Shown piece after piece: positions 2,977 through 29,389 of a stretch of 64,000 nt of DNA (its first letter is position 1; each line of letters begins with the position of its first letter). Location: contig CAMWUN010000003.1 of the NCBI GenBank assembly GCA_947177425.1, positions 1-64,000 on the forward strand. Direction: 5' to 3'. The notes under the pieces are model-generated. The model was not told the DNA's origin and ran no database searches. It worked only from the letters and a program-made list of their open reading frames with translations. The position numbers were made by a program, and so were the translations under genes. Source of the DNA: an uncultured bacterium (GTDB taxonomy: Bacteria > Bacillota > Clostridia > Lachnospirales > Lachnospiraceae).

Positions 2977-3045
2977 TTTTTATATACACTTCATATTATT
3001 TGTTCTTTTTTATGTAAGATTTGACAGCTTTTGGGGTACCTGACG

Positions 3046-3719: not shown

Positions 3720-4679
3720 ATGCAGAATATGGGCGATAAGAAAGGTTTTCAAAAAGTGAAAAGGGAGCGCACAGCGCCGGATAAAGCAGCCTCCCCGGGC
3801 CAAAAGGAAAAACTGCCAGGGCGTACGCTGATAAGCAGGTTCGACTGGCTAAACCGCTTTAAACACTGGTATTTGGGCGGAATCAGCCTCTTTAGGGGGC
3901 TTTTTCGCGTGCATGCGGCCAAGCAGACGATTTTTCTTATCATCAGTTCTTTGTCTGTCTGCTTTGTTATGGCGGCATTTTATACGAATTCGGGGGAGTT
4001 CGTGGTGAAGGTGGACAGGAAGATGGCACGGGACGGTTTTTTTCTGTCGGAAATCCCCAACTTTGATGAACGGCTTATTACCCTTCATGCGGAAGCGCTG
4101 GTGGATGCCACCAATATCAGTATCTATAACATAGGAAGCGATGTGATGGATATTGACGGGGTGCATCACGGTTCGGATTATTTTGCCTATACATTTTATG
4201 CCAAGAATCTTACAGGTTCCACGCTGGATTACCGTTATACCCTGTATGTCAGACATCATACCAAAGGAATTGAGGAGGCGGCATGGATTATGCTTTTCCA
4301 CAACGGAAAGCAGGAGATTTTTGCGAAGATGAACAAGAACGGTTATCCAGAGACACAGTATTCGGAATATGAGTTTCCTTTTCAGGAATATGCAAAGTAT
4401 CCGGACAGGCAGCAGACTACCATCAGCCGGAAAGATCCAGGGCATATTACCCAGGAGATAATTGACAGGCAGCAGTTTGACTATCTGGACGGTATTTTCC
4501 AGTTGAATACCGTGCCTTTTGCTTCCGACAGAACCATATGCACGGGGCTTAGGGAGGATTTTGAGCATGAGGGAATGGATAAGTTTACGGTGGTGATCTG
4601 GTTAGAGGGGGAAGACCCGGAATGTGTGGACAGGATTATTGGAGGGGAAATTGAACTGGCAATGAGTTTTACATATTAG
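3720..4679 (+). CDS. TasA/camelysin-like membrane-exported protein with long cytoplasmic N-tail
   Basis: About 320 residues. A basic N-terminal tail of ~70 residues precedes one hydrophobic segment (about 71-88) ending in AAFYTNSG, reminiscent of the (A)xWFT ending of SipW-type leaders. The extracellular part has the Tyr/Asn-rich pattern of TasA-like beta-sandwich proteins (DYFAYTFYAKNLTGS), and its C-terminal motif (IWLEGEDPEC, then hydrophobic strands) recurs in the next gene (IWIEGTDDDC). ATG 3720 is chosen, with CGGAAG at 3708-3713; a TTG at 3669 inside the HD-GYP gene would add 17 residues. It is the first gene of the surface operon. A structural or anchoring subunit is inferred, not shown. 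Confidence 0.65.
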   Translation: MQNMGDKKGFQKVKRERTAPDKAASPGQKEKLPGRTLISRFDWLNRFKHWYLGGISLFRGLFRVHAAKQTIFLIISSLSVCFVMAAFYTNSGEFVVKVDRKMARDGFFLSEIPNFDERLITLHAEALVDATNISIYNIGSDVMDIDGVHHGSDYFAYTFYAKNLTGSTLDYRYTLYVRHHTKGIEEAAWIMLFHNGKQEIFAKMNKNGYPETQYSEYEFPFQEYAKYPDRQQTTISRKDPGHITQEIIDRQQFDYLDGIFQLNTVPFASDRTICTGLREDFEHEGMDKFTVVIWLEGEDPECVDRIIGGEIELAMSFTY

Positions 4680-4701
4680 TACTTTTTAATAAAGCAGAGA
4701 T

Positions 4702-5673
4702 ATGAGAGGGAATGAGTCGGTTATGGGAAAAGGAAAAAGCAAAAGGGCATATGAGAACGGGGCGGAAAATAAAAAAATATCTCCGGCAGGGAAAAAGGCA
4801 GGCGGCGCAGGATGGCTAAAATCAAAACTTCTGGTATGCCTTATGTATGTGGCTGTCCTTTCCACGGCCACTTACGCCTGGTTTACTCTGAACAATAAGC
4901 CCAAGGTATTCAACCTTTCGCTGACGGCAGGAGGAGCGGCGGATTTGCTGATTGCCGATGATTTGGGAGGCGGTCCCGGGGAGTATAGCGAGAAGCTTGA
5001 CCTGCAGACGGCGAACCAGACGCCTGTCGCCATGATGGATATGGAACTGAACCCAGTCACCACGGATAACGCAAGAACCTTTTATGAACCGGTCTATGAG
5101 GGAAGCAGCGTTACCAGCGTGAAGGAAATTACGGATGTTACGGAACTGAACCGGAGTTATGTATACCAGAAGACCTTTTACCTGAAGGCGGGAAGCATTA
5201 AGACAAAGAGCGGCAAAAAGGTAAGTTCCAGAGTGAAGTCATACGATATCATGCTTTTGGGGCCGGAACAGCATGAGGAGTTCAGCGGATGTGTAATTGA
5301 ACAGAAGTCAGGGTCTTCTGCAGAAGCTTCTGCGGCCAACTCTATCAGAATTGCGTTTATTGTGGAGGGGCAGGATGAGATTCCCATTTACGAGCCAAAC
5401 AGCAGTCAGCATAACGGCGGCGACAAGGCCACAAACGCGGTCAGTTACGGCAATTACAAGACCTTAAAGCAGCCCTCCCCCGGCGGGGAATTTGCAGACG
5501 GGGAGAACGGCAATTCCAAAACGCTTTTTACTATCAGAGAGGAAGAGGACGTGCTGGTGACGATGCTCATCTGGATTGAGGGGACGGACGATGACTGCAC
5601 AAACTCCATCCAGATGGACGATATTGTGGGAAATATCCAGTTTACTTCTAAGGATGCAGAAGATGCCAGATAG
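4702..5673 (+). CDS. SipW-dependent TasA/camelysin-like exported protein
   Basis: 323 residues. A lysine-rich tail (1-41) precedes a hydrophobic stretch (about 42-57) that runs into ATYAWFT (56-62), the signature of leaders cut by SipW-type signal peptidases. After cleavage an extracellular domain of roughly 260 residues remains, with a Thr/Ser/Gly composition and the C-terminal motif LIWIEGTDDDC followed by short strands, matching the protein encoded just upstream. TasA-family proteins polymerise into biofilm fibres in Bacillus; that role here is inferred from leader type and the linked peptidase. The start is uncertain: ATG 4702 has a weak ribosome site, and ATG 4723 is the alternative. Confidence 0.72.
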   Translation: MRGNESVMGKGKSKRAYENGAENKKISPAGKKAGGAGWLKSKLLVCLMYVAVLSTATYAWFTLNNKPKVFNLSLTAGGAADLLIADDLGGGPGEYSEKLDLQTANQTPVAMMDMELNPVTTDNARTFYEPVYEGSSVTSVKEITDVTELNRSYVYQKTFYLKAGSIKTKSGKKVSSRVKSYDIMLLGPEQHEEFSGCVIEQKSGSSAEASAANSIRIAFIVEGQDEIPIYEPNSSQHNGGDKATNAVSYGNYKTLKQPSPGGEFADGENGNSKTLFTIREEEDVLVTMLIWIEGTDDDCTNSIQMDDIVGNIQFTSKDAEDAR

Positions 5674-5685
5674 AAAGGACATGCC

Positions 5686-7281
5686 ATGAATGCATTTTTT
5701 TACTACTTTTATAATTTTATGAGAAGCATTTTTGAGCATATATGGAATGTGCTGGTGGCAATTAAGGATGCAATTATCGGCATATTTGATATCCGTTATT
5801 ATATGGAACTGTTCAGCACTTACAAGGACGAACTTTCCCCGCTGGGCTGGTTTTTTGCCATTGTGGTACATATTCTTCTGATTCTTCTGCTGTCCCTTTT
5901 TGTATTTCTGGTATGGAAGGGGCTTAAGGTGCTTTTCCGGTTTAAGGTTCCGGTGATTGAATACGAGAAGATGAAGGATGAAGTGGTGACATTAAAACGG
6001 GAAATTATGAAGGCAAATTATGAGAAGGATAAGATACTTGCCATGAAGATTTCTGAACTTGGAATGGAAATCAATCCTGATTTGCTGGAAACACCCAATG
6101 AACTGCTCAAAAAGGGAATGGCAGAGGAAAAAGATGAGACGAAGCAGAGGGAAGCAGGAGAGGAAGCCGTAGAAATAGTGGAGACGGCAGAGAAGAGATT
6201 TCCCAGGCTGTCCGGTGTGGACGTTTTTTACAAAAATCCTGACTATCAGCCGCCAGTGTACAATAATACCATTACGCTGGAGGAATTGTGCATCAATTTC
6301 AGGAATTATGCCGCCAGCAGGCTGGGACTGTATTATGAACTGGAGGTCATGAAGCAGACATTTGCCTCTTTTGGAGCGGCAAAAATGCTGATTTTCCAAG
6401 GAATTTCCGGTACAGGCAAGACCTCTCTTCCCTATGCTTTCGGGCAGTTTATCCAGAATCCGAGTGTTATCTGTTCTGTGCAGCCCTCCTGGAGGGATCG
6501 TACGGAATTGTTTGGCTATTATAATGATTTTACCAGAAAATATACAGAGACAGACTTTCTAAAGACTCTTTATGAAGCCCATTATTATGACGACCCCAGA
6601 ATCGTTATTTTGGACGAGATGAATATAGCAAGAGTGGAATACTATTTTGCTGAGATGCTTTCTATTCTGGAACTGCCAAGGGAAGAGGAGCGGTATGTGT
6701 CGGTGGTATCCAATACAGCAGCCAACGATCCTGACCTTATGGAGGAAGGCAAAATCCAGATTCCCAGCAATGTATGGTATGTGGGGACCATCAATAACGA
6801 TGACTCCACTTTCGCCGTGGCGGATAAGGTTTATGACCGTGCAATTCCCATTGATTTAGACGACCGGGCGGAATTCTTCGAGGCTCCTGACACAGAACCC
6901 ATGCGCCTTAGTTATAAGCATCTGGGAAAATTATATCGGGAGGCGAAAGAAAAGTATCCGGTATCGGAGGAAAACCTGATGCTTCTGGAGAGGCTGGACA
7001 AATATCTGGTGGATCATTTCCGGCTGACCTTTGGAAACCGTATCATGCGGCAGGTGCAGGAATTCGTCCCCTGCTATGTTGCCTGTGGGGGCTTAGAGAC
7101 AGACGGGATAGATTTCATGTTTGCAAAGAAAATTTTGCGTAAGTTCGAGTCCCTGGGGCTTGGGTTTATCCGGGATGAACTGGACAGCCTTGTGGTTTAC
7201 CTGGAACATGAATTCGGAAGCGAAAATATGAAAATCAGCAAAGAATATCTGGCACGGCTTAAGAAAATGAGCGGAAGCTGA
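5686..7281 (+). CDS. Membrane-anchored McrB-like AAA+ ATPase
   Basis: 531 residues. The N-terminus has an amphipathic or hydrophobic stretch (1-38) and a clear transmembrane segment (about 54-78), then a charged coiled-coil-like linker (90-165). The AAA+ module follows: Walker A GISGTGKT (about 240-247), Walker B VILDEMN (about 307-313) with the McrB-like continuation (A)RVEYYFAEMLS.LE, sensor-1 segment VGTINNDDST, and an Arg-finger-like YDRAI. McrB relatives are normally soluble GTP/ATP motors paired with McrC nucleases. Here the motor is fixed to the membrane and lies among exported-protein genes, so a role in surface assembly or secretion is inferred. The alternative, a diverged restriction/defence motor, is weaker because no nuclease motif is visible in its partner. 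Confidence 0.8.
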   Translation: MNAFFYYFYNFMRSIFEHIWNVLVAIKDAIIGIFDIRYYMELFSTYKDELSPLGWFFAIVVHILLILLLSLFVFLVWKGLKVLFRFKVPVIEYEKMKDEVVTLKREIMKANYEKDKILAMKISELGMEINPDLLETPNELLKKGMAEEKDETKQREAGEEAVEIVETAEKRFPRLSGVDVFYKNPDYQPPVYNNTITLEELCINFRNYAASRLGLYYELEVMKQTFASFGAAKMLIFQGISGTGKTSLPYAFGQFIQNPSVICSVQPSWRDRTELFGYYNDFTRKYTETDFLKTLYEAHYYDDPRIVILDEMNIARVEYYFAEMLSILELPREEERYVSVVSNTAANDPDLMEEGKIQIPSNVWYVGTINNDDSTFAVADKVYDRAIPIDLDDRAEFFEAPDTEPMRLSYKHLGKLYREAKEKYPVSEENLMLLERLDKYLVDHFRLTFGNRIMRQVQEFVPCYVACGGLETDGIDFMFAKKILRKFESLGLGFIRDELDSLVVYLEHEFGSENMKISKEYLARLKKMSGS

Positions 7282-7337
7282 GAGGCGGCAGCGAAGGTAT
7301 CTGAAGGGTTATGCAGAGAGTTGGCTTGGAGAGGGCA

Positions 7338-8636
7338 ATGGCAGAAAACACAGATTATGTACATGAAACTTATTTGAATATGAACCGGGAAGACGTACAG
7401 GAGAGGCTTAAGGAAGATAAGTTTTACAATTATTTCTATAACCTTCTTGAGACGGGCAGCAATTACTGTAAGTTTTCCAATGCCAGGCTGGTAAAAAGTA
7501 TTGACGAGGAGTGGGTGACGGCAATTGAAGATGCCATGCCGTCTCTTCACTATGTCATAACCCATCCACGGAAGTTTATTGAGGAGGACCGGGAAGTGGT
7601 AAATGTGGCCATGGCCCGGAATATTACCACGGAATCCATCAGGCACCTTTTGCAGCACAGCGATCTGATTGACGAGTACAAAAAGGACGGGACGGTCATT
7701 CCCAACCGTATTTTAAATGTGTATAAAGAGGAAAGTCTGAATATATATGAAAACCGTTTTATCTGCACGCTGGTGGCGGAACTGCAGTATTTTGTAAATA
7801 AGCGGTTTAATATGATATTTGAGGCAAGTAAGGATGAGGTGGGCGCTTTTTTTGAACTGCAGTCCCGTGTAGACAATTATACGGAAATGATTGAATATAA
7901 GCTTTCCGTGAGTATCAGGGAGAAACAGACAGATGTAAATAATGAAACGGAAAACACAAATATATTTGCAAGGATTATCAAAATACACCAGCAGATTAAC
8001 ACTCTGGCGTCCACAGAGTTTATTGGCACGATGCGCCGTTATCCGGCAGTTTCCCATCCAATTGTCAAGACAAACGTCATCGGCAGGAATAAGGATTATA
8101 AGGCATGCCACAAGCTTTGGAACTTTATCCATTCCTACAGCAGAGTAGGCTATAAGGTGAATATTGTAAGGCAGGATCCGATTATTTCCAGACAGTTTGA
8201 GAGAGATATTTATAATACAATGATACGGGATTATACCATTCTCCATGATAACATGGAATTTCACAATGATATCAGTATCGAACGGCCCTTAAAAGAAAAA
8301 AAGATGGATGTGAAGCAGATACGGCAGTTTCTTGATGAAATTGTGAGAAATACGGACTTAAGCGATGCAAATTTAAGAAAACTGGTGGTTAAGGAACTGA
8401 CCGATATCCAATCCAGAAGGAAAGCAGAACTTGCCGAGCAGGAACGCATTAACAGACAGAAAGTGAAAGAAATACAGAAAAACCATTCAAAATTGCCGGA
8501 AGATGGAATGCAGGAGACGGAAAAAAACAACATATGGAGTACGAAAAGCGGCGGAAACGCTGGAGAGAGGGCAAAGTTCATGCGCCAGAAGCGGCGTGAA
8601 AAGCTGGCGGCCCGCAAGGCAAAGAAGAAACAATGA
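7338..8636 (+). CDS. DUF2357-like (McrC-type) cytoplasmic partner of the AAA+ ATPase
   Basis: About 432 residues with no signal peptide or membrane segment. The central IYENRFICTLVAEL resembles the ENRF segment typical of DUF2357 proteins, which are usually encoded beside McrB-like ATPases; this assignment is by motif and neighbourhood only. I do not see the PD..(D/E)xK nuclease motif found in McrC-like effectors. The last ~50 residues are very basic (RQKRREKLAARKAKKKQ), suited to contact with nucleic acid or acidic lipid. ATG 7338 is chosen because GGAG at 7328-7331 lies six bases upstream; ATG 7311 has a badly spaced site. Its stop overlaps the signal peptidase start (ATGA), so the two are translationally coupled. 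Confidence 0.6.
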   Translation: MAENTDYVHETYLNMNREDVQERLKEDKFYNYFYNLLETGSNYCKFSNARLVKSIDEEWVTAIEDAMPSLHYVITHPRKFIEEDREVVNVAMARNITTESIRHLLQHSDLIDEYKKDGTVIPNRILNVYKEESLNIYENRFICTLVAELQYFVNKRFNMIFEASKDEVGAFFELQSRVDNYTEMIEYKLSVSIREKQTDVNNETENTNIFARIIKIHQQINTLASTEFIGTMRRYPAVSHPIVKTNVIGRNKDYKACHKLWNFIHSYSRVGYKVNIVRQDPIISRQFERDIYNTMIRDYTILHDNMEFHNDISIERPLKEKKMDVKQIRQFLDEIVRNTDLSDANLRKLVVKELTDIQSRRKAELAEQERINRQKVKEIQKNHSKLPEDGMQETEKNNIWSTKSGGNAGERAKFMRQKRREKLAARKAKKKQ

Positions 8637-9178
8637 GACGAGTATTGTCAATTACAGGAAATATTATATTTACGGCAGTTGTATTGTACCTGTGCTATTT
8701 TATCATACAGGCAGTCCAGAATCAGTCCCCGGCGGTGTTCGGCTACCGGATGCTCCGGGTGGTGACGGACAGTATGGAGCCGGTATTTACAAGCGGAGAC
8801 TGTATTATTATAAAGGAAACAGGACAGGAGGAACTTGCAGTCGGTGATATTATAACCTTTGTTTCCAGAGATCCTTCTTTGCAGGGAGGATTTAATACCC
8901 ATAGGATTATAGATATTGCCGCAGATTATACTGTCGGCAATGTTGTTTATTATACCAAGGGTGACAACAACAATTGGGAAGATGAATATGCGGTCCTTTA
9001 TGAAGATATTGTGGGCAGGTACGTAAATACCCTGCCCTTTGGGGAGCAGATTTCGTCCTTCCTTGAGAAGCTTTCAGACCGCAATTATTATTTTGCAGTT
9101 GTAATCATACCGATTCTGCTTTGCTTTATTTCCAGCATCCATCAGTTGGTGAAGGATATAAAGGAAAGGAAGAGTTGA
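8633..9178 (+). CDS. sipW: SipW-type (S26B) signal peptidase I
   Basis: 181 residues, the size of Bacillus SipW. There is an N-terminal membrane anchor (about 11-28) and a second hydrophobic segment near the C-terminus (about 153-167). The catalytic serine is in TDSMEP (Ser47). In place of the bacterial lysine, a histidine sits in FNTHRI (His90), giving the Ser-His dyad of the ER/archaeal class. GDIITF and YYTKGDNN are the further conserved boxes. SipW-type enzymes cut leaders of TasA-like proteins. Five genes in this operon encode such or related leaders, so this is the expected dedicated peptidase. The start overlaps the preceding stop by four bases. Confidence 0.9.
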   Translation: MRRVLSITGNIIFTAVVLYLCYFIIQAVQNQSPAVFGYRMLRVVTDSMEPVFTSGDCIIIKETGQEELAVGDIITFVSRDPSLQGGFNTHRIIDIAADYTVGNVVYYTKGDNNNWEDEYAVLYEDIVGRYVNTLPFGEQISSFLEKLSDRNYYFAVVIIPILLCFISSIHQLVKDIKERKS

Positions 9179-9197
9179 AACAGGTGACAGGCAGGAC

Positions 9198-9995
9198 ATG
9201 GAGAGATTCAGGAGATTCCTTCAGGAAAAAATTATATTAGGTATAGTGCTGTGCATACTGCTTGGCGTGGTGCTGGCTACAGCGTCCACTGCATGGTATG
9301 CCGTCAACAGTTCAGTAAGGACTTATGGAATTGAACTTAAGGCTGGAGGAACCGGCGGCATAAAAGTTGCCGCTTCGGCCGGAGGGGAGGACATCATGCT
9401 GGACGAAAGCCTTCCTTTGAATGAAGAGGGTGTCCCGGTTCTTTCCATTGCTTTAAAGGATTTTGAGAATATTGAGAGCGGAAGGATTGCCCCCGGCGCA
9501 TATATTCCCATGGATTTTTATATTACTGCATTAGGGGAGAATATCAAATCCTACTCTATCAAGGTGCAGATGGAATATAAGCCTGCGGATGAAAATATTA
9601 CCCAGGAGCAGAAAAAGAAGATAGAAGAGATGATAAACGACCATATCCAGGTCTATCAGACCATGTATGAGGAGGACGGTATTATTAAATTTAGTGACCC
9701 GCTCACTTTTTATAAGGAAGTGACGGATGAGGTGGAGACGGCCAGAGGGCCTCTTATCTTTAATCAGGAAGTGCTGGCCCAAATCTACTGGGTATGGAAT
9801 TATGAACTGACCGATATCCCGGATTATGAAAATATGGAGAGATTTCAGAGGTTTCGCGGCCCTGACGGTTTTGATGTGCGGGGAGCAGTGCGGGCTTACG
9901 ATGAAGAAGATACTGCATTGGGGAATTACATTGACAATATCTGGATGAATGTGTACATAGAAGGCAGGATGGAAGGGGTGGCAGTGACTGAATGA
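9198..9995 (+). CDS. SipW-type leader exported protein (first of three)
   Basis: 265 residues. A short basic N-terminus, a hydrophobic core (about 12-28) and TASTAWYAVN (28-37) form a SipW-type leader. The mature part begins with an alternating Gly/Lys strand (GIELKAGGTGG) and contains the sequence IYWVWNYEL near residue 200, a Trp-rich block I associate with TasA-like proteins of Clostridia. The start has a GGCAGG-like site a few bases upstream. It follows the signal peptidase by 19 bases and overlaps the next gene by four (ATGA). It is probably a fibre subunit or accessory subunit; there is no enzymatic motif. Confidence 0.7.
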   Translation: MERFRRFLQEKIILGIVLCILLGVVLATASTAWYAVNSSVRTYGIELKAGGTGGIKVAASAGGEDIMLDESLPLNEEGVPVLSIALKDFENIESGRIAPGAYIPMDFYITALGENIKSYSIKVQMEYKPADENITQEQKKKIEEMINDHIQVYQTMYEEDGIIKFSDPLTFYKEVTDEVETARGPLIFNQEVLAQIYWVWNYELTDIPDYENMERFQRFRGPDGFDVRGAVRAYDEEDTALGNYIDNIWMNVYIEGRMEGVAVTE

Positions 9996-10822
9996 ACGGA
10001 AAGAAAAAACTGACGGTGCTGGTTGTGTGCGGCCTTTTGTTATTGGCAGTAATGGGAGGGACTTTTGCATGGTATCTTAAGGAAGATGCAAAGCGGGCCC
10101 AGATGCAGGAAGCCCAGGTAATGGCCCCGTACAATTTATATCTGCTGAATCCAAACGCTTCAGACACCCTCCAGTTTGCAGTGGGAAATCTCCATCCGGG
10201 AGAGATGAAGCAGGCAGTGGTCTGTGTATCCAATATGCGCCCTGATGATTATGAGGGGGATGAAGATATGGATATGGCGGCGCTTGCCAAAGAGTCGGAG
10301 TTTGGATATGATTTGATGCTTGTGCACACGGAAAATCTGGCGGTGGATTACCATATCTATCCATTGCAGCGCCACGAAATGGCAGGAACACTTCCTTCTG
10401 GCGCCATTATTATGGAGGATGATACCAAAGACCATTTCTACTGGACGAAAAGCGCCGCTTCCTTAAATGGCAGCGATATATCGGAAGACATGCGCAAAAG
10501 GGTATTCGGGGAACAGGATGCGGACAAGAATGTCAATGTAGGTACATACTGGCTTTCCGATGATGAAGATATGATGCTGGCTTATCACATAGACGAAAAG
10601 GGCAATGGGAGCTATGAATACGATTATTATTTAATTGAAATTAAGTGGCAGAACATCAATAATTTTGACGATTATAAAAAGGAAACGGATTTAGTATACG
10701 TGGTAGTCAATGCAAAACAGCCGCGGCCTGTGGAAAAACCGGGCAGGTCAATGCAGCAGACAGGGATGACAGGCAATGAAGATGGTAACAGCGCTGAAAG
10801 ACAAAATGAAGAATATGAATAA
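9992..10822 (+). CDS. SipW-type leader exported protein (second of three)
   Basis: 276 residues with the leader KKKLTVLVVCG...GGTFAWYL ending at about 28. The mature protein is acidic and Asn/Tyr-rich. Near the end it has YDYYLIEIKWQ and VYVVVNAKQPRP, then a low-complexity tail rich in Gly, Asn, Glu and Gln. ATG 9992 overlaps the previous stop (ATGA), implying translational coupling. The stop lies inside the next gene (47-base overlap if that gene starts at 10776). The function is unrecognised beyond the shared leader and the operon; a surface subunit is inferred. Confidence 0.68.
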   Translation: MNGKKKLTVLVVCGLLLLAVMGGTFAWYLKEDAKRAQMQEAQVMAPYNLYLLNPNASDTLQFAVGNLHPGEMKQAVVCVSNMRPDDYEGDEDMDMAALAKESEFGYDLMLVHTENLAVDYHIYPLQRHEMAGTLPSGAIIMEDDTKDHFYWTKSAASLNGSDISEDMRKRVFGEQDADKNVNVGTYWLSDDEDMMLAYHIDEKGNGSYEYDYYLIEIKWQNINNFDDYKKETDLVYVVVNAKQPRPVEKPGRSMQQTGMTGNEDGNSAERQNEEYE

Positions 10823-11897: not shown

Positions 11898-11950
11898 AAT
11901 GTGTTTGTCACTGAACTGTTACCTGTGGGAATAAAAAGATGGAGGTTTGT

Positions 11951-14900: not shown

Positions 14901-17900
14901 AATCCCTTATTTATCTGGAGGAGAGCGCCAGCTATACCAGGCCCTACGGAAAGAACTGGAAGGATGATGTAGGAAGCTATGGAGGCGTAATCAGAAACGG
15001 TTCCTGGGGGGAAGGAGACAGGCTGATTTCCTATGAGGATGGAAAAGTAAAAGGGAATGTTACGCAGTCGGGAGGCGGCTGGGTGATTGACACAGAGGCG
15101 GATTTCATACGTTTGTCCATCATGCTCAATACGCAGGGGAGGTTTGCTTCTGATTGCTTTGGGGGCGCTTCCAAGGCGGATTTGCTGGGCGGTTCTTATC
15201 TTTTAACAGGTAATATGAATCTGGCAGACAGCGGCGTCTATAGTTTAAACAGGAATGACAATAAAGGTCTGGATGGTGCGGAGACTTTTACAGGAACATT
15301 TAAGGGCGCTGGAACCGGAAGCGTGACCATTGATTTGGGCAGGCTTGAAACTACGCAAAGTAATCTGGCCCTGTTTCCGCGTGCAGGCGGCGGGGCGGAG
15401 ATTTCCGGTTTTACTTTAAACCGTTCCATAGACGGGGCAAGCAAATATGCAGCGGGACTGGCATGTCAGGTTTATGGGGATTTCACTGTTAATGATATCA
15501 GGGTAAATATAGATATAAAAAGTTATTCAACCAATAACAACAATTTTAATAATGTCTCCCATTACTATGGCGGACTGGCAGGGGAAATTTATGCGCAAAA
15601 TAACACAAGATTTACAGTGAATAATGCGAAAATAAGCGGAAATATGGATGTTGGAATTGCCTCAGACAATACATTGGCAGGAGGACTGGCGGCTTTATAT
15701 ATGCAGGAAGGGGCAGGCATGTCCGGCATTTTGGTAAATGGATTTGAATTGATGGATGGTTTTCATCTGTCTTCCGCCGGACGCAAGTGCAGCGGCATGA
15801 TTACGCAGATTAACGGTGATACGCAGCAGCAAGACAGGACAATGCTTTCCATGAGCAATATTGTTGTCCATAACGGCGCATCCTTAACATTCAGTGAAAA
15901 TACGGACAAACCGGGCGGCGGCTGGCTGGGGATGATGTGGAATGATGTGGTGCCGGACGAGGGGGCGCACTGTTCCATTGACGGAATTACTATAGGTGAC
16001 GGCGGAGCGGCCGGGGACGGCCCTTCTCTGTCAGCCGGGGGTGTATTCGGCGGTCTGGCGGATACTGTAACAGGGCACATCCAGGTAAAAAATATTACGA
16101 TTAATAATGGGACATTTAATAATAACAGCGCGAAAAAGGCAGGGCTGTTATTCCGTGACGGCATTAACGCATTGATTGAAATTGACGGCTATACCATTGC
16201 CGGACACCCCCTTGGGGAGACTGGCGGAAATAATGCCGGAGCAGTGCAGTGCACTGGCGGCGGAAATGTTGACGAAATCGTTGCTTATAATGTTGGCCGT
16301 GATTTAAATGGCGTCAATGATTACGCAACAGGCGGTATTGTAAATATAATTTATAATGGATTTCCCCAGAACCACAAGACTTATCAGAACAGACTGGCAG
16401 GGGATGCCAATGACAGAACCCGGTATTACTATAACCTGTTTGGAGACAGTTTTGCAGGGGAAGATACATTCCTGCAGAATGCGGAAAAGCTGGACGGGAG
16501 TGCGCCGGTAATTGCCAATGACAGACAGATGATGGTATGGCATTTGTCCCAATATATGAATAACTCCATCAGGCGGTATCTGGACAGGTATTATACAGGA
16601 GATATCAGTGCGCGTAATGCAGACACAGAATTTAAGGGGGAAATTGATTTAAGCAAAGTCAGCTATTATCCAACCATGGTGACAGGGGGAAGTTATTCTT
16701 TTAAGGATAATGCGGAAATCGTGTTCCACGGAAAAGAGATAGCAGACGGGGCTGGGATTATGACGCCCTCCGATGGCGGCAGACAGCATTATATGATGCA
16801 TGCCGGCCTGTTCCTTAGCAATTCCGGTGGTGTAACTGTGGAAGGTGATGAGAATTTTCTGACCCTGAGCGGCAGTGTATCCAATCTTGGGGATAACTCC
16901 GGGGCATTATTTTCCGGGACTATCAGTGATACGAAAAATATTTATCGTGTGTGTCTGAAAGATTTGTATATTGCAGGTTATCCGGAAGCTGCTCCGGGAC
17001 AGAACAGCCATGCTGTGGGACTTATGATTGGAAAAGTGATGGAGCGGACAGGGGTGGAGGATGGAAAAGAAGTCGTATACCCTGTCAGGCTGGACTTATC
17101 ATGGATAGAAACAAGAGGGTATGATGGGCTGGCGGGAAGAAAGACCGCCGCCGCACTGATAGGAACGGTGGGAAGCGAAGAATCCAGGGATATCAGTATT
17201 GAATTTACCAATATAAGACTGGACAGCCGTAAGGAAGGGATTTTTCAGTATGCAAGCCTGATTGATACAAATTATTATATGGAGGACCAGGAAAATCCTG
17301 CAGATGAGAACGGAAGGATGCGCCGTATCAGATACCTGTTCACGGAGTATGCGTTTCATAATGATGCTGGTGCGGATAAAAAGCAACCCTATTTTCCTTT
17401 TGACGGGAGCAATCCTTATTATGGAAACAATACAGACGGTACCTATGCGGAATCTTATGTGACAATCGGGTCTGAACTGGCGGAAGGAGTTGAGTATTGG
17501 GATAATAAGGAGGGGCCGGAAGACGGAAAATACTATAACTTGCCTTATCAAAACAGCTTTGAATGGAATACCACAAATGTAAATACTACTTATCTGCCTT
17601 ATGTACATACAGAGGGACACAAAGGGAGCAAAGAAATAGAGGTGAATCCCAAGAATTTTGCAATTGATAAGGGATGCGGCACCTATGAAGACCCCTACCA
17701 GATAGAAGATGCCAGACAGCTTCTGGCTCTGGCGCGTTATCTCCAGAATCGAAATGATTATAAATATCTGGGAGGATGGAAGATTCATGCTTTTGAGTCC
17801 GGGCGGACTGGCGGTTCTGTGTGTGCCGGAACAGTGACAGTACATACAGAAGATAACTTAATTACATATCCGGTCAGTGCAAATGGGAATGGGACAGTTT

Positions 17901-20900
17901 CACTTCCGGCAGATTTTCCTACCCAGGAGGAACTCAGCCGTGCCTACTATATAATTGTAAATGACATAGACATGTCTGCAATGAAGAACGGCACAGACAG
18001 GCAGATTGCAGAAGATTTTCAGGGGCTTGGCACAGAAAACATGCCTTTCAGGGGCGTTATCACAGGGAAAAAGCAGGATGATGGCTCTTACCCTGTCGTC
18101 ACGCTGCCTTTTAGAAGCTGCTGGACAGATAATACGGCGAATGTGAACCATGGGCTGATTCAGTATGCCAAAGGCGTAGTGGTCAAGGATTTGGAGATTA
18201 AGGGGGCAGGGACAGAAACAGGGGACAATAATACAGCAGGGACGAGAACCGGCGTTGTTAAGGTGCGGAGAATGGCAGGCGGTGTTATAGCCTGTATCCT
18301 GGGCGGCGACAATATTATTGATAATGTTACAGTAAATTTAAAAGTTGTTCCGGCGGCTGAGTCGGTTCAGGCAGGCGCTTACGTGGGAAATGTGGAGCAG
18401 GGAAGCCTGATTTTAAGAAACCTGTCAGAAAAAACGGCAGAGAATTTCCAGACAGGAAGCTGGGATTCCAATGCAAATACTTTTATGGCAGGGGATGCGG
18501 GCAGATACCAGTATATTTCCGGTCTGATTGGCAAGGTGGAAGACGGCTGTGTAATATATGAGGATAACTTTAGCGGCAATACATCTTATAGCGAAAAAGT
18601 ACTTGCCCATAATGCAAAGACAATATCAAATTCTACAGCCCTGATTTATAAAAATGACAGGCTTCCAATCTGTAAGCACTACGACATTATTGTTGCAAGC
18701 CAGTTACAGGGAAAGGTTGAGATAGCTGACGCGGCGGCAGGCGGTGATTTTACAGCCCGGATTCAGAACGCGTCACAATTACAGGTTGTTTCCATGGCAG
18801 TTAATGCCGATGCCTTTTCCATCTATTATAAGGAAGGAGGCTATGATGTAAAAGCGGCCTGCCGGAAAGCAGCTTATGACAACGTAGGACAGGGAGCCGC
18901 TACAATAACAGGGACAGGAAGCGATTTTGATGCCGCAACGAAGGAAGACGACGGAGTATATTATTATCCTTATCTTTATAAAAACTATATCGTCTTTGCA
19001 AACAGCAGCGGATGGCAGGGAACATTAAAGTCGGTCAGCGGCGGATATATCAGCCAGCTTAACGGGCCCTTTACGGAAAGTGACGGGACAGTTACGGATG
19101 TTCAGGCAGTCATGAATTATGAACTGGCAAAGGCGGAATATGATATGTCTGTCTATGACAGAGGATTCAGAGGATTGGGGGCAGCCTACGGAATGTCTGA
19201 CAGTGTCACGGTGACGGGGATTAACGAGGAGTCCGGCGTTCCCGTTGACAGGATTAACGACACCTTTTATTCAGATTTCAGGGCAAATTTTGATGGAAAC
19301 GGGGCCGTTATCCGCATGGCAATTGACAGAAGTTATGACGATGGCATCCACACAGCAGCCCTTTTTAATGACCTTCTGGATACAACGGCAGGGCGCAGTT
19401 ATACCATATCCGATTTTACAGTGACAGGAAGCGTAAGCAGTGTAAACAAAGATGCATCAGGGAGCGTTACGGACAGCGGCGATGGGAACTATTCCAACCG
19501 TACGGCGGCAGTAGCAGGTCTGGTGCGCGGCCCATGGACATTTGAAAATGTTACCCTGAAAGATATGACAATTGAAGGAAAAGGAAATACAGGCGGAATT
19601 GCGGCCTGGATTGAGCCGGTAAGCGGACAGACCTATACTTTTGACGGCTGCGTGATAGGAGAAAATACCCGTATTGACACTTACGGCGGCAGTGTGGGCG
19701 GCGTAATAGGGGTTGTCACCCAGCACGACAGTAATGCCGGGGGAGCGGCAAATGTTTCTGTAAATCTGGAAGGATGTTCCATCCAGGGCAGTGCAACAGG
19801 ACAGGCAGCACTGGAAGTAAAGGACAGAACAAGGGACAGAAGGGATACCTTTAATAATGGCAACAATAACTATGTCCAGATGGCGGCAGGACGCAGCGGC
19901 GGCCTGATTGGTTATGTGGGAAGAAGACATGTGACCGATGACTTCAGCAGCCGTCTTGCCATCTGGGTCAATATAAATGAAAAAGCAGGAAAATCAACAG
20001 TCATAGAATATGCAGAGATTGTGGGGGCTTATTCTTCCGGTGGAGTAATAGGAGAGTATGATTCTCTTGGGGAATATGAGAATCCGTCTGTCAGCCCGGG
20101 GATACAGACGCCTTCCGGTATAACGATGCAAAACGTTACTGTGGAAAGCTGTAAAGTGGAAGGCTTCCGCTGGAATATGAATGCAAGAGATGACTGCTTT
20201 GATTACGGTGTTGGCGGCCTTATAGGAGAAATCCGGGGAAACAGTCTGACTATGAAAGCGTCAAAGGTGCTGGACACAAATGTTACAGCCTCTGACAGGC
20301 CGGACCAGCCTGACAGGAAAACGGCGGGAATGTATGCCGGAGGAGGAATAGGATGCCTTAAGGCAAGGACAGCTTCTGTTTTGGATGTTGGAATTCAAGG
20401 AGAAATTGACAATGCGCTTAAGGATACGCTGGAACTTGGCGGCCAGCAGTACAAGGTACGTTCCGGCGCCGCCGATGCAGGAGGACTGATAGGAAAGACT
20501 GTCTGCGGGGCAAGTGCAATTCCATCCAAACTTACTTTGAGTGGTATTCAGATACTGGGGATGCATATTGAAGTGGATAACCGGACACAGACGGAAGAAA
20601 AAAGCGGAACCTTTGGAGCCGGAGCCGGGGCTGTGGGCTGTGCAGGCGGCGTAATCGGCACAAACCAGATGGAACTGGAAATCAGGACGGTGGAAAACAG
20701 CACAGACGCTGACGGCGGCGCAAAGGTAAACAACTGCATGGTCATGGCTTCCGGCAGGAATTCCGGAGGTATTATTGGGGCAATAGATAAATATTATAAT
20801 GAGAGCAAAGTACGGCCTACGGATATACGGAACGTTAATGTAACAGCCTGTCTGATTGGCATAAACAATATAAAGGATTTTAATGCAGAAGGAGCTTCAA

Positions 20901-23900
20901 ACGAGTATGGGGCAGGCGGTATCTATGGCTATATGCCCAATATAAATGGGGGAAACAGCCATCATCTGGAAAATGCCAGTGTAAGCGGCTGCTGGATATA
21001 CGGGCACAATTCCGGAGGAATGCTGGGCTATGCAGGCCAGTATACAGTTATCTTTTCCAATGCAGAAGGAACAGGTAAAAATGCCAGTATTAATCTTTGC
21101 GAAAATAAAATTTACGGTGTACACGCAGGGGGAGCAATTGGAAGATGCAGGTCGTATAATGTAAACTATATCGGCATGAACATTGAAGGCAATCTTGTGC
21201 AGGCTTACAGAGATTCCAGGGCAAGCGCTGCCCTGGCGGGAGGATTCTGCGGCTGGGTGGACGCAGGCGGGGACAATGATGAAGGGTATTTGGATTACAT
21301 TACCATTAAGGATAATTCTATCCTGGCGGCCAATGCCAATGAAAATAAGCATGTCAGTGCCGGAGGCGTTTTTGGTAATGCCAACTGGAAACGCTGTTAT
21401 GCATACCGGACGGAACTGAAAAATAATCTCATTGGCTATAGTGAAAGTCCAGGCGGCGCAGCCCTGCTAAAGAGAAATCCGGTTCCGGGGTTAAATACCC
21501 TGCAGGCGCTTTTTAACAGCACAGACGGAGAGTTCTGTGCAGACAGGGAAGTGTGCCTGATTACAGGGAATGATGTCAGCCATTTTGCGGCTGAGCCCAT
21601 GCCCACAGCCGGACAGTTGCAGGATGAGACAACGGGCATTGGTTATTATGCAGGACGGACAGGAAATTTCATAGGAGTATTTAGCGGCAGCGGTGAAATA
21701 TATTTCCTGTCTCCTTCGGTGATTTTTGATGGCAATTTTAAGGGGAAAACCCGTCCGGTAACGGATGTGGGTATGGAAGTGGGCGCAGCAGGTACAGACG
21801 GCAGTCTTTTGGGAACCCCCTATGGTTACAGGAAAAATGTCCATATTATTTATCATGATGTGGAAGAAACAGCCGATGGGGATGCCGCCGTATGGAATGG
21901 GGTATCTTTTGAAGGCGCTCCCGGAAGCTGGAAAACCCTTTTTGACGGAATAAGTTATAACAATGTGATAGAGGAATACCGGGATGCGGCAGAAGCCAGT
22001 GATGCCTTCCAATATCTGGACGCCAGCCGCCTTGATGTGAAAGCTGACAGTCAGGGAGACATTACGATAGAGGAAATATATGAGAAGCTTTACAGGAATG
22101 AAAAAGGGCTGCTCCTGTCGCCGCTGATAACAGCAGACGGAAAGTATCTGCCCATGATTGTACTTGACACCCAGTATGGCACGGCGGATCAGCTCATGAA
22201 AGGCGTTGTGGCAGCGCTTACCAATGTGGGGGGCGTTTATGCCGCTGACGATAGTGCATTTTCTTCCGGTATCGGGGAAATAACGGATATAAAAACCCGC
22301 CCCATGATGATTACCAGGGATGGGGAAATTGTTGCCGGAAGCGGGCAGACGAGTTTGGAAGCAAGGAAAGTTTCGGGCAGATGGATCGTTGAATACAAAG
22401 GATTTGACAATGACGGTCTGGATGGAGAGGAACAGACATTTACCCTTCTTAACATAACCTATTCCTGGCAGTACACGCCTGTGGGCCGGCCGGCTGCAGA
22501 GAAGGTGGAAAGAAAAGAAGTCTTAAGCATTCCCGTTTTCGTGGTAGAGCGGCTGACCATTGATACACATCTGAAAATCATGGAAGATTTGGTATACAAT
22601 GGAGATAAGGTGAAAAAGGACGGATTATGTTCCTCCGGTATTGTTATTGCAAATGACAGTTCCTACACTTTATATTCGGAATACATATACGGAGAAGCGA
22701 GAAAGAAATACCCGGTTGGTATAGAAAAAAGTGTGGGATTGTCCTATGAGGAAAATAATACAACCATAGAAAGGGGATTTGCGGAGGGGACGAAACTGAC
22801 GCTGATTGATATTTGTGACAGCAATAAAGTGTATTATTACACAGTTGGGAAAGATGATCACGGGCCATATCCTTACACGATGTTCGTGGACGACGAGGGG
22901 AACCCTTATAAGAATAAGGATATCAGCAAAAACGATGGATTTGAGCTTTATGGTGAAGATACAGCCAGCCCGCCTTTTCACACAACCGATATGGTAGATG
23001 GGAACAAAGAAGAATTTGAATACGCTAATGTGGCAGTGGAGCGGTTTTTGATAACCGTTGATATTTCAGGTGTGGAACCGGAAAAGATACAGGGACGGGA
23101 ACTGAGGGATTTCAGCATCAGTCCCGGACTTTCGGAAGACCTGGAGAAAAAGACGACTCTCACAAATCATACTGCCTTAAAGGCGGCGATACAGCCGGGA
23201 ATGTCAATCAGATTTGACAGCAAAAATGTTGTGGAAGAAGAGGAAAAGACGTGGATTGAAGGAAATATAAAAGCGGATGACGATGGTTTTGTCAATATCT
23301 GGGCAGTCATTGATATCAGCGCAGATCCACTGTACTGGGCGGCAGTCCTGCAAAATGGCGGCGTCAATACCATTGACAGTGCAAATAATAATAAATATCT
23401 GGAACTGCAGGTATACATGACGCCTAACAACAGTGAGCAGGAAGTGTTCCTGCCTGCAGGAACCAATGTTTCCATAGAAGGGGTGAGAACCAGACCAGAG
23501 GGAATAAAGGTGGAAGATATTCCGGATACCATCGAAAAACAAAATCTGGAGCCTTATTACGATGAATCGAACATTCATTTTTATAAAGACAGTAAACTGG
23601 AATTTAAAATGAATGATCTGAGGGAAATTATCAGTGAAGAAATCAGAAATAACGGATATACGGAAGGGGTAATCCGCTGGTGTGATAAGCTGACCTTAGA
23701 TTTCAGAAATGCAGACATGACCGAACACAATCTGGATGAGTATACCATGCACTTGAGACTTTTAAGGATAGAAAATAAGGATTATCCTACAGGCGGCGAA
23801 CGCATTGACGAGTATGAGAGGAATATTCCGGCCGCCCGGAAACAGGATTTGGCATGTGCAGTGGAGACAAAGGATTTGATGCAGCTTGGGATTAATATCT

Positions 23901-24454
23901 ATGAAAACCAGACAAAGATGCCTCATGAAATTGATTTTGATTTTAAACTGGATTTTACAGGGGTTCTGACAAACATTCAGGAGACTGACCAGAAGACGGC
24001 GGATAAATACTATACAGTTGCCTACCGCATCTGGGAAAAAACTAATGAAAGCGGTACGCCCCAATATAAGGTATATGAGGGAAACCAGATGGAACTGGAG
24101 CTGGAAAACGATCCCAACGGCAGGAAGCTGACTGGAGCGGTATCGGCTGATGGTGAAAAGTTCCGGTATGTAACATATCAGTTTGCTCTGGATGAAATGA
24201 AAAAAGGGACGAAACTTAATGCCAGCCAGTCAGGAATGACAAAGGAACAGAAAGAAGGGGTGATAGTCAGGAATCTGAAACTGACTCTGAAAGATGCGGA
24301 CAAGATGGATTTATCCAATTACAAAGTCCAGGCAATTGTGTATGTCACAGATGAAAAGCCGCTGCCTGCTGATTTAGACCTTGATTCCATCACAACGCTG
24401 ACAGACTTCTTCGTATTTACGGTGGCAAAGCTGAAAACAGATCTTGACTATTAA
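11951..24454 (+). CDS. Giant secreted repeat protein (4167 residues), probable beta-helix surface protein
   Basis: Predicted mass about 450 kDa. ATG 11951 is preferred because GGAGG at 11941-11945 lies five bases upstream; ATG 11939 has no site. Residues 1-32 form a classical signal peptide ending VWA/AP. Residues ~35-210 are a Gly/Asp/Glu/Ser stalk with 12-residue repeats. Residues ~214-402 hold six tandem C-x-H...C-x2-C units, likely metal-binding. From ~450 to ~3160 there are many GLUG-like GG(I/V/L)xG turns (GGIAGEITG, AGGVLGRYY, YYGGLAGEIY), interrupted by boxes such as GLGTEDYPFKG and GCGTYEDPYQIEDARQLLALA. The last ~1000 residues are non-repetitive and end DFFVFTVAKLKTDLDY. No LPXTG or SLH anchor is visible, so attachment may depend on the TasA-like partners. 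Confidence 0.85.
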   Translation: MKRKVTAVRMMAVFMAATLFFNNQQMLLAVWAAPQGQEADNTSEDNAPEDDVSDDSAGGGEDGPGSGGDAGEGDDTSSDEDTEEGDGDGSSENPGEGGGDGSSDDTGEEDGDGSGENPGEGDGSSSGNDTEEGDGNGSGDDTEEGDGSGSGDDAEEGDGSGSGDDAEEGDGNSSGENPGEEDGGGSGNNPGADGENPGSGIDDGDGDKPAEEDCSHQWVTDSETQKSICSKCGKEQVIEDGEGKPEEEICEHEWVTDAKTQKSICSKCGKEQTIEDEEDKPEEEICEHEWVTDEETQKLICSKCGKEKTQEDEEICEHEWIVDEETQKLICSKCGKEKTEEDGETCQEHEWIRDLETLLIVCAKCGEENTEEESECPEGGFHIYDLNEEGTGYVCILCGAEKEVLDGLDVTLEMYLHVMGEIDLFILGDADDPASSQLPKTLTDLQNGGKNLIVSSFGDLLVIQELSKQTDFQGYTIQIMQRSIGQLSNHVSIPDWDLRNTPAFEGLGTEDYPFKGKVESAYQNGLNYSLDRPFFNYLSTDAEVDTMNIKGYINTSSSDPQGILAGVLVKGDNANASLRNIVLDGDVSNTGGAAGMLFGRVEGGTDLSNPMNLSYDSSEVIIGRNGSANVSGFHAGGIAGEITGSTVFHISEDPAVSNLQVKSVNMPANSINGEYTWESTSGAGMYVGAMKDGEFIIGGASYTVSVARASGLGGANGGLAGILIGTKVNTDASGENPIVISGSGIVGKVSGGVIGYYNHAADGELNLDHIIVDAVVDATGNDGYFAGGVLGRYYRDEEGSLDKPYDAIKNVQVKRELKAWNAVGGIVGFLHGSNLKIGDVAVTGNITSNSGGQLTDTSINVRAIGGVAGWLVGRYVEVENADISSSFSTNAFSAGGIVGAVGKVLPQFAGERDSLLKVKDVSVNSSFGAYANHCRGGIFGVVQPGTMAALDGTISINMNSSQSFESDNGGIRMKIGHITGVQNESLIYLEESASYTRPYGKNWKDDVGSYGGVIRNGSWGEGDRLISYEDGKVKGNVTQSGGGWVIDTEADFIRLSIMLNTQGRFASDCFGGASKADLLGGSYLLTGNMNLADSGVYSLNRNDNKGLDGAETFTGTFKGAGTGSVTIDLGRLETTQSNLALFPRAGGGAEISGFTLNRSIDGASKYAAGLACQVYGDFTVNDIRVNIDIKSYSTNNNNFNNVSHYYGGLAGEIYAQNNTRFTVNNAKISGNMDVGIASDNTLAGGLAALYMQEGAGMSGILVNGFELMDGFHLSSAGRKCSGMITQINGDTQQQDRTMLSMSNIVVHNGASLTFSENTDKPGGGWLGMMWNDVVPDEGAHCSIDGITIGDGGAAGDGPSLSAGGVFGGLADTVTGHIQVKNITINNGTFNNNSAKKAGLLFRDGINALIEIDGYTIAGHPLGETGGNNAGAVQCTGGGNVDEIVAYNVGRDLNGVNDYATGGIVNIIYNGFPQNHKTYQNRLAGDANDRTRYYYNLFGDSFAGEDTFLQNAEKLDGSAPVIANDRQMMVWHLSQYMNNSIRRYLDRYYTGDISARNADTEFKGEIDLSKVSYYPTMVTGGSYSFKDNAEIVFHGKEIADGAGIMTPSDGGRQHYMMHAGLFLSNSGGVTVEGDENFLTLSGSVSNLGDNSGALFSGTISDTKNIYRVCLKDLYIAGYPEAAPGQNSHAVGLMIGKVMERTGVEDGKEVVYPVRLDLSWIETRGYDGLAGRKTAAALIGTVGSEESRDISIEFTNIRLDSRKEGIFQYASLIDTNYYMEDQENPADENGRMRRIRYLFTEYAFHNDAGADKKQPYFPFDGSNPYYGNNTDGTYAESYVTIGSELAEGVEYWDNKEGPEDGKYYNLPYQNSFEWNTTNVNTTYLPYVHTEGHKGSKEIEVNPKNFAIDKGCGTYEDPYQIEDARQLLALARYLQNRNDYKYLGGWKIHAFESGRTGGSVCAGTVTVHTEDNLITYPVSANGNGTVSLPADFPTQEELSRAYYIIVNDIDMSAMKNGTDRQIAEDFQGLGTENMPFRGVITGKKQDDGSYPVVTLPFRSCWTDNTANVNHGLIQYAKGVVVKDLEIKGAGTETGDNNTAGTRTGVVKVRRMAGGVIACILGGDNIIDNVTVNLKVVPAAESVQAGAYVGNVEQGSLILRNLSEKTAENFQTGSWDSNANTFMAGDAGRYQYISGLIGKVEDGCVIYEDNFSGNTSYSEKVLAHNAKTISNSTALIYKNDRLPICKHYDIIVASQLQGKVEIADAAAGGDFTARIQNASQLQVVSMAVNADAFSIYYKEGGYDVKAACRKAAYDNVGQGAATITGTGSDFDAATKEDDGVYYYPYLYKNYIVFANSSGWQGTLKSVSGGYISQLNGPFTESDGTVTDVQAVMNYELAKAEYDMSVYDRGFRGLGAAYGMSDSVTVTGINEESGVPVDRINDTFYSDFRANFDGNGAVIRMAIDRSYDDGIHTAALFNDLLDTTAGRSYTISDFTVTGSVSSVNKDASGSVTDSGDGNYSNRTAAVAGLVRGPWTFENVTLKDMTIEGKGNTGGIAAWIEPVSGQTYTFDGCVIGENTRIDTYGGSVGGVIGVVTQHDSNAGGAANVSVNLEGCSIQGSATGQAALEVKDRTRDRRDTFNNGNNNYVQMAAGRSGGLIGYVGRRHVTDDFSSRLAIWVNINEKAGKSTVIEYAEIVGAYSSGGVIGEYDSLGEYENPSVSPGIQTPSGITMQNVTVESCKVEGFRWNMNARDDCFDYGVGGLIGEIRGNSLTMKASKVLDTNVTASDRPDQPDRKTAGMYAGGGIGCLKARTASVLDVGIQGEIDNALKDTLELGGQQYKVRSGAADAGGLIGKTVCGASAIPSKLTLSGIQILGMHIEVDNRTQTEEKSGTFGAGAGAVGCAGGVIGTNQMELEIRTVENSTDADGGAKVNNCMVMASGRNSGGIIGAIDKYYNESKVRPTDIRNVNVTACLIGINNIKDFNAEGASNEYGAGGIYGYMPNINGGNSHHLENASVSGCWIYGHNSGGMLGYAGQYTVIFSNAEGTGKNASINLCENKIYGVHAGGAIGRCRSYNVNYIGMNIEGNLVQAYRDSRASAALAGGFCGWVDAGGDNDEGYLDYITIKDNSILAANANENKHVSAGGVFGNANWKRCYAYRTELKNNLIGYSESPGGAALLKRNPVPGLNTLQALFNSTDGEFCADREVCLITGNDVSHFAAEPMPTAGQLQDETTGIGYYAGRTGNFIGVFSGSGEIYFLSPSVIFDGNFKGKTRPVTDVGMEVGAAGTDGSLLGTPYGYRKNVHIIYHDVEETADGDAAVWNGVSFEGAPGSWKTLFDGISYNNVIEEYRDAAEASDAFQYLDASRLDVKADSQGDITIEEIYEKLYRNEKGLLLSPLITADGKYLPMIVLDTQYGTADQLMKGVVAALTNVGGVYAADDSAFSSGIGEITDIKTRPMMITRDGEIVAGSGQTSLEARKVSGRWIVEYKGFDNDGLDGEEQTFTLLNITYSWQYTPVGRPAAEKVERKEVLSIPVFVVERLTIDTHLKIMEDLVYNGDKVKKDGLCSSGIVIANDSSYTLYSEYIYGEARKKYPVGIEKSVGLSYEENNTTIERGFAEGTKLTLIDICDSNKVYYYTVGKDDHGPYPYTMFVDDEGNPYKNKDISKNDGFELYGEDTASPPFHTTDMVDGNKEEFEYANVAVERFLITVDISGVEPEKIQGRELRDFSISPGLSEDLEKKTTLTNHTALKAAIQPGMSIRFDSKNVVEEEEKTWIEGNIKADDDGFVNIWAVIDISADPLYWAAVLQNGGVNTIDSANNNKYLELQVYMTPNNSEQEVFLPAGTNVSIEGVRTRPEGIKVEDIPDTIEKQNLEPYYDESNIHFYKDSKLEFKMNDLREIISEEIRNNGYTEGVIRWCDKLTLDFRNADMTEHNLDEYTMHLRLLRIENKDYPTGGERIDEYERNIPAARKQDLACAVETKDLMQLGINIYENQTKMPHEIDFDFKLDFTGVLTNIQETDQKTADKYYTVAYRIWEKTNESGTPQYKVYEGNQMELELENDPNGRKLTGAVSADGEKFRYVTYQFALDEMKKGTKLNASQSGMTKEQKEGVIVRNLKLTLKDADKMDLSNYKVQAIVYVTDEKPLPADLDLDSITTLTDFFVFTVAKLKTDLDY
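12393..12464 (+). repeat. Two identical 36-bp tandem repeats in the stalk of the giant protein
   Basis: The 36-bp unit starting GCGGATCCGGGGATGATG occurs twice with no mismatch (12393-12428 and 12429-12464). It encodes a 12-residue block rich in Gly, Ser, Asp and Glu. Diverged copies of the same block extend from about 12187 to 12534. Perfect identity between neighbours in a diverged array points to recent slippage duplication, which would change stalk length in frame. Confidence 0.85.
12590..13156 (+). repeat. Six tandem C-x-H/C-x2-C coding repeats
   Basis: The encoded segment repeats six times with the pattern C-x(1-2)-H-x(11-12)-C-x2-C, for example CEHEWVTDEETQKLICSKCG. The last copy is the most diverged. 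Spacing between copies is about 30 residues, mostly acidic. The regular pairing of one Cys and one His with a CxxC looks like a zinc-ribbon chain, unusual outside the cell membrane; metal binding is inferred from spacing alone. Confidence 0.8.
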
Positions 24455-24558: not shown

Positions 24559-24600
24559 AAAATGATGCAGAGAGAGGGATTATCCCACTCTCTGCATCAT
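24559..24600 (-). terminator. Rho-independent terminator of the GGDEF/EAL gene
   Basis: A perfect 13-bp stem (24562-24574 with 24588-24600), extended by GGG/CCC around ATTAT after one mismatch, overlaps the 3' end of the minus-strand gene. Read on the minus strand the stem is followed by TTTTAC. On the plus strand no T-run follows, so it serves mainly the minus strand, though the hairpin may also protect the 3' end of the giant gene's transcript. A smaller hairpin (GGCAG/CTGCC, 24457-24469) directly follows the giant gene's stop. Confidence 0.6.
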
Positions 24601-26124: not shown

Positions 26125-26235
26125 AGCTTTTCCTTTCTGCCCAAGGGCATGTACATTGTTACAGTACAATTATATTATATAAATCACAAAAAGTAATGGG
26201 AAATTATAATAATTATCCGAAAAAATAAATATATG

Positions 26236-27223: not shown

Positions 27224-27252
27224 TTGCAACCGTTTGAAAAGTGGTGTATAGT
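27224..27252 (+). promoter_or_regulatory. Sigma-A promoter of topA
   Basis: TTGCAA (27224-27229), a 17-base spacer and TATAGT (27247-27252) form a good housekeeping promoter about 40 bases before the topA start. The predicted transcript would have a short leader containing the ribosome site AGGATAAGGGG (27272-27283). Confidence 0.65.
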
Positions 27253-27290
27253 TGAGCACGTTAAAGCTAAAAAGGATAAGGGGATACATT

Positions 27291-29369: not shown

Positions 29370-29389
29370 GAATTTCTGGAATTATATAA

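Follow-up and report, generated by a model that had tools for sequence, protein, structure and literature searches.

What is a relative of the restriction protein McrB doing among genes for exported, fibre-like proteins? The question is raised by an operon on 64,000 nucleotides of DNA from an uncultured Lachnospiraceae bacterium (GCA_947177425.1, contig CAMWUN010000003.1, positions 1–64,000; this whole stretch is called the window), in which an AAA+ protein and a DUF2357 protein are encoded together with a SipW-type signal peptidase and leader-bearing proteins. McrBC machines are known for DNA cutting. With a probability of about one half, the locus encodes a nuclease-less McrBC machine of the CoCoPALM type, a membrane nucleoside triphosphatase (NTPase) linked to cyclic di-GMP (c-di-GMP) which would control how TasA-like fibres and surface cargo are deployed.

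Nine ORFs (open reading frames) of one strand, overlapping or separated by short gaps, occupy 3720–24454 (+), as the initial annotation had described. The operon is counted here as ten genes, because an HD-GYP gene lies directly before F1 in six relatives of nearly identical gene order (L020–L025) and is present in the window at 3046–3687. The genes are the following:

3046–3687 (ORF 3031–3687, first ATG 3046), + strand: HD-GYP protein, gene 1 of the operon, syntenic in L020–L025 (Pfam HD_5, E 9.8e-26; motifs HDVGR and HHERFDGTGYP)
3720–4679, + strand: F1, paralogue of the fibre proteins, probably membrane-anchored (alignments, AlphaFold model, hhalign, conservation)
4702–5673, + strand: F2, exported, SipW-type leader (TYAWF, read by eye)
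5686–7281, + strand: AAA+ protein, McrB-like; N-terminal transmembrane segment; NxD motif NNDDS (profile matches, transmembrane prediction)
7311–8636, + strand: DUF2357 protein resembling the McrC N-terminal domain, without nuclease, helical C-terminus (family match, structure model)
8633–9178, + strand: SipW-type signal peptidase (NF046067, E 1.9e-27; TIGR02228 above cut-off)
9198–9995, + strand: F3, exported, SipW-type leader (TAWYA, by eye)
9992–10822, + strand: F4, exported, SipW-type leader (GGTFAWY, by eye), weak match to Peptidase_M73
10776–11897, + strand: F5, exported, related leader (VYSKYY, by eye)
11939–24454, + strand: giant secreted protein, acidic and zinc-ribbon-like repeats followed by GGLIG-like repeats (sequence repeats; homologues in close relatives)
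24580–26169, − strand: GGDEF-EAL protein adjoining the operon, membership uncertain (Pfam EAL, E 6e-64; GGDEF, E 2e-10)

The AAA+ protein has its Walker A motif at about 6400–6423 and a single strong transmembrane segment (residues 58–76) upstream of it, in agreement with the N-terminal membrane helix proposed initially. A transmembrane segment ahead of Walker A was found in 92/92 AAA proteins of the family, and the N[NI]DDS (NxD) motif in 93/93. The core matches the McrB structures 6hz4, 6ut6 and 7vsr (E 4e-6 to 9e-6); the AAA profile also gives a weak match to ATP synthase subunit b (E 0.026). Judged by its sequence, it is a relative of McrB, anchored in the membrane and bearing an NxD motif. 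Its partner scores 39.2 bits for DUF2357 (cut-off 23.3, E 6e-10), so that this assignment of the initial annotation also stands, and resembles the N-terminal domain of McrC without the nuclease. No Pfam nuclease family was found on it, and past residue 288 the structure model contains only helices and coil, with long helices at 352–393 and 415–440. The DUF2357 profile recovered no McrC among the PDB sequences. The locus thus shares with McrBC type IV restriction the McrB-like AAA core and the McrC N-terminal (DUF2357) domain and differs from it by a membrane segment in place of the DNA-reading domain and by the PD-(D/E)xK nuclease, which was not found.

Systems of NxD-type McrB proteins with membrane or coiled-coil fusions and signal-peptidase neighbours have been named CoCoPALM and left for a later paper, taking up a few sentences in the main text of the publication (Bell et al. 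2024, eLife, PMC11090510). In these systems the GTPase is fused to an FtsB-like domain of transmembrane segment and coiled coil, and the McrC homologue bears a coiled coil. The initial annotation had called the system undescribed, which is not supported: the locus is probably of the CoCoPALM type, a system named but unstudied. The NxD McrB with membrane segment, the McrC-like partner and the signal-peptidase neighbour are common to both; relative to that main text, the window adds the fibre paralogue F1, a position for c-di-GMP-type genes, a giant surface protein and the lack of a nuclease.

Whether these genes belong together was answered by scanning genome contigs with the AAA alignment. The best 80 of at least 546 confirmed relatives, a choice which favours close relatives, span, going by record titles, Lachnospiraceae, Oscillospiraceae, Ruminococcus (including R. 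albus 8 and KH2T6) and other Clostridia; each locus was searched from 8 kb before to 5 kb after the AAA gene. DUF2357 was detected in 78/80, SipW in 77/80, F1 in 69/80, F2 in 61/80 and HD in 21/80, and in 59/80 both SipW and DUF2357 are immediate neighbours of the AAA gene. Misses were kept in the denominators and lie mostly at contig ends: the two for DUF2357 (L097, L112) have less than 150 bases of downstream sequence, two of the three for SipW (L057, L077) less than 210 bases upstream, and nine of those for F1 less than 4 kb upstream. The third SipW miss (L038), a real or undetected absence, and two for F1 (L050, L058) are not at contig ends. As controls served 20 of the 41 rows of a phylum sample other than the window's own, more distant McrB relatives, mostly the best-scoring, some of which end at contig ends. 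SipW, F1 and F2 occurred in 0/20 of these and DUF2357 in 10/20, and a transmembrane segment was seen in none of the 19 scored AAA proteins. Chance co-occurrence is rejected (SipW 77/80 against 0/20, Fisher p 3e-18, a guide only, the genomes being related). The initial annotation had named chance-level co-occurrence, or pairs found mostly in defence islands, as evidence against its proposal; since 78, 77 and 69 of 80 loci carry DUF2357, SipW and F1, and SipW, F1 and F2 are missing from all controls, the motor, its partner, the peptidase and the fibre genes belong together in this clade.

Among 200 genomes of the family, DUF2357 is present in 15, F1 in 13, all within these 15, and a SipW-type peptidase in 78, which include all 13; 65 of the 78 are without F1. 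Here too a chance association, of F1 with DUF2357, is rejected (p 1e-18, again only a guide for related genomes). In 291 genomes of the class F1 occurs in 11, every one with a strong full-length AAA match, while 15 have an AAA match at E <1e-100, those without F1 being G590, G683, G699 and G734. Ten of the 11 retrieved F1 loci have the AAA gene in the same stretch, nine DUF2357 and eight a c-di-GMP-type gene; in G653 the AAA gene lies about 37 kb from F1, together with DUF2357 and SipW. Phylum-wide (299 genomes) F1 was found in the window's own genome only. The samples overlap (L105 is L022, L055 is L162, L063 is L170). F1 is the most specific partner of the AAA/DUF2357 pair. The nine genes listed initially were right; this role of F1, the loss of the nuclease and the HD-GYP/EAL gene had been overlooked.

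The gene directly before F1 gives the strongest functional clue found. F1 lies upstream of AAA in 69 loci, 64 of which extend far enough to show what precedes it, and in 49 of these 64 the gene is of the HD-GYP and/or EAL type. In the remaining 15 it is not, and no EAL/HD match was found elsewhere in these stretches. Four of them (L047, L062, L087, L099) have less than 0.6 kb beyond the next gene; in the other eleven (L051, L053, L059, L064, L069, L071, L073, L081, L082, L094, L106) F1 is preceded by an additional fibre or peptidase gene or by nothing that could be recognised, with no EAL/HD match. When the 49 proteins and that of the window (n=50) were compared with Pfam, EAL was found in 39 and HD_5 in 22, in keeping with 10 short HD-GYP, 28 short EAL and 12 long proteins (HD in 12/12, EAL in 11/12). 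An HD gene occurs in one of the 20 control loci. Because unrelated domains of one signalling system fill one operon position, c-di-GMP control of the locus is suggested. The HD-GYP protein of the window has an HD domain with both the HD and the GYP motif and is predicted to be of the phosphodiesterase class. The motif E[AVSG]L[LIVMAF]R is absent from 50/50 proteins at this position, so that the EAL forms may act not as enzymes but as sensors. Degenerate EAL proteins of the LapD and FimX type control adhesion, and window-type loci may be alike in pairing such a protein with genes for a surface structure; their conserved partner is an NTPase. A second c-di-GMP-type gene, that of the GGDEF-EAL protein, lies convergent with the giant, past the far end of the operon; read by eye, the protein seems to have intact EAL motifs and a degenerate GGDEF. 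Since the host genome has 11 GGDEF domains, c-di-GMP signalling seems plausible in this organism. An Rfam scan of the whole window at gathering scores gave no matches, hence no known c-di-GMP riboswitch.

The peptidase carries the motifs SMEP, THRI and KGD (read by eye) and, although it stays under the cut-off of NF046067 (96 of 190 bits), the SipW-type assignment made at first is borne out by its matches. The leaders of F2, F3 and F4 are of the [A/S]xAW(F/Y) type and that of F5 is related. Five exported proteins with such leaders had been claimed, which is right for F2–F5; F1 is probably an uncleaved signal anchor, because just 20 of 47 F1 sequences have Ala or Ser at the position that would be −1; the F1 of the window (MAAFYT) could still be cleaved. 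Its ectodomain is a beta-sandwich in the AlphaFold model (pLDDT 87.9), and hhalign relates it to the fibre proteins as a paralogue (probability 98.4). Cytoplasmic tails of 69 and 42 residues precede the transmembrane segments of F1 and F2. The cytoplasmic helix of F1, better conserved than the ectodomain in close relatives, is for this reason a candidate docking site for the motor.

How close these fibres are to TasA is less clear. A TasA identity by sequence is rejected. The fibre proteins match TasA/M73 only weakly (F4 to Peptidase_M73 at E 0.062). The fibre-protein profile found no match among PDB sequences, no SipW-cognate NCBIfam model matched any of 48 fibre proteins, Foldseek returned nothing for F1 at E 0.001 (best 4e-3), and in the VIA listing for F1 TasA is not set apart from other beta-sandwiches. 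The likeness to TasA-TapA-SipW of Bacillus and to sipW-bsaA, which makes filaments in Clostridium perfringens (PMC7395162), lies in a SipW-type peptidase with co-encoded leader-bearing proteins; the sipW-bsaA operon differs, as far as the text of PMC7395162 describes it, in having no McrB/DUF2357 motor. TasA assembles by donor-strand exchange, for which TapA is proposed to supply the initial strand, and the word ATP is absent from the main text of this work (PMC9674648).

How might the parts work together? An McrBC-derived NTPase, composed of an AAA+ ring and a nuclease-less McrC-like activator, would be the cytoplasmic part of a machine deploying SipW-processed TasA-like fibres and, in this lineage, also the giant protein. 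Going by gene position, the HD-GYP/EAL protein would read or lower c-di-GMP and thereby switch the machine on or off. DUF2357 would then dock on the ring and activate hydrolysis as McrC does for McrB, and the ring would engage the conserved helix of F1, which may anchor or nucleate the fibre as TapA does for TasA. Outside, F2–F5, matured by SipW, may join, perhaps via donor-strand exchange. Membrane passage itself would be left to Sec, and hydrolysis would license, place or retract assembly. Because 65/78 SipW-type genomes do without F1, the motor is better seen as a device for assembly control or placement than as a requirement of SipW-dependent secretion.

A bolder version is put forward only tentatively and is on the doubtful side: the former restriction machine would be a c-di-GMP-gated motor which actively assembles the fibres via the F1 helix on the McrB/McrC-like ring, and, with a sister architecture, AAA-DUF2357-AAA, it would become a chassis of general use in building surface structures. 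To our knowledge, the TasA operon of Bacillus has no McrB/DUF2357 motor, and we know of no TasA-type fibre that needs a cytoplasmic motor. If true, this would be the first powered assembly in this class of fibres. A conserved operon uniting McrBC parts with fibre genes, mostly behind a c-di-GMP-type gene, would illustrate how Clostridia common in gut and rumen made an NTPase of defence into a machine that builds surfaces. CoCoPALM gains concrete, testable partners: F1, SipW and HD-GYP/EAL. The whole words SipW, TasA, camelysin, EAL, HD-GYP and di-GMP are not found in the main text of PMC11090510, and the openly licensed article texts of PubMed Central yielded no functional study of the system; going by this literature, the c-di-GMP position, F1 and the tie to fibres seem to be new.

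Three other explanations have to be weighed. Remodellers are found among the AAA+ proteins of the MoxR/McrB clade. The motor could accordingly be a chaperone for quality control or extraction of membrane proteins, acting on leader-bearing precursors instead of assembling them, and the long cytoplasmic tails of F1 and F2 would suit such a role. We consider this unlikely, as the SipW-type genomes without F1 handle their precursors without such help and as the F1-specific link and the conserved F1 helix point to one partner, not to many substrates.

Still less likely is a defence function, in which AAA/DUF2357 would sense invading nucleic acid, while the genes for fibres and peptidase would provide the output at the surface or membrane. 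Apart from the restriction ancestry of McrB/McrC, it is favoured by a match of the AAA protein to the candidate defence model PDC-M26A of PADLOC (E 7e-42) and by the CoCoNuT relatives, which are proposed in the main text of PMC11090510 to be RNA-targeting defence systems. However, no nuclease follows DUF2357 in the structure model, the DUF2357 and SipW proteins match no PADLOC model, and c-di-GMP and fibre genes suit surface control better. A defence-island setting is rejected for the window, whose flanks are housekeeping by Pfam (a ChlI/ComM-type gene and DprA upstream; TopA, CodY, FliF and FliG downstream); PADLOC matches there (ShosA, DpdF and others) look like cross-hits of housekeeping families.

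Mere linkage, with co-regulated genes travelling together and a motor that does not act on the fibres, is improbable in view of the near-complete adjacency across many Clostridia and the confinement of F1 to genomes carrying the pair, even if we only infer the contact of AAA, F1 and fibre and the two genes are far apart in G653.

Returning to the control of fibre deployment by a membrane NTPase, the giant proteins look like cargo and not core, since a + strand ORF of at least 1000 amino acids is present in only 35 of the 80 AAA loci. That of the window has 4171 residues from the first ATG (11939); the 4167 residues given initially are those from the ATG 12 bases on (11951). Apart from weak zinc-ribbon-like matches it belongs to no Pfam or NCBIfam family. 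GGLIG-like motifs occur in it 16 times, whereas 200 shuffled sequences average 0.6, and this suggests folding as a beta-helix. Near the N-terminus (12590–13100) a zinc-ribbon-like unit, C..H.W / CxxCG, is repeated after a long acidic stretch rich in Gly, Ser and Asp. Among the relatives with such an arrangement, the ORF following F5 is BLAST-similar to the giant in L020–L023, L025–L028 and L030, and the truncated ORF of L024 is not.

The AAA-DUF2357-AAA triples mentioned above are a possible sister system. They were found in three loci:

L033, 5397–12201: AAA-DUF2357-AAA triple
L034, 7260–16311: AAA-DUF2357-AAA triple
L181, 3262–12603: AAA-DUF2357-AAA triple

Both AAA proteins have hydrophobic segments and stand beside single-pass membrane proteins, which in L033 and L034 show AgI/II, MBG or transglutaminase matches, some under the Pfam cut-offs. 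No F1 or SipW match was found in these three loci. The AAA-DUF2357 pair of L182, by contrast, lacks surface neighbours of this kind and counts against a universal surface link.

Close to the operon, a gene of the type IV leader peptidase family (Peptidase_A24, E 1.1e-15) is located at 26421–27050, and no pilin gene was noted nearby. The operon itself sits between the ChlI/ComM-type gene and dprA (within 214–2935) and topA, codY and the flagellar genes (within 27252–34395). In other Firmicutes dprA and topA are adjacent, and the operon may be an insertion into this housekeeping neighbourhood.
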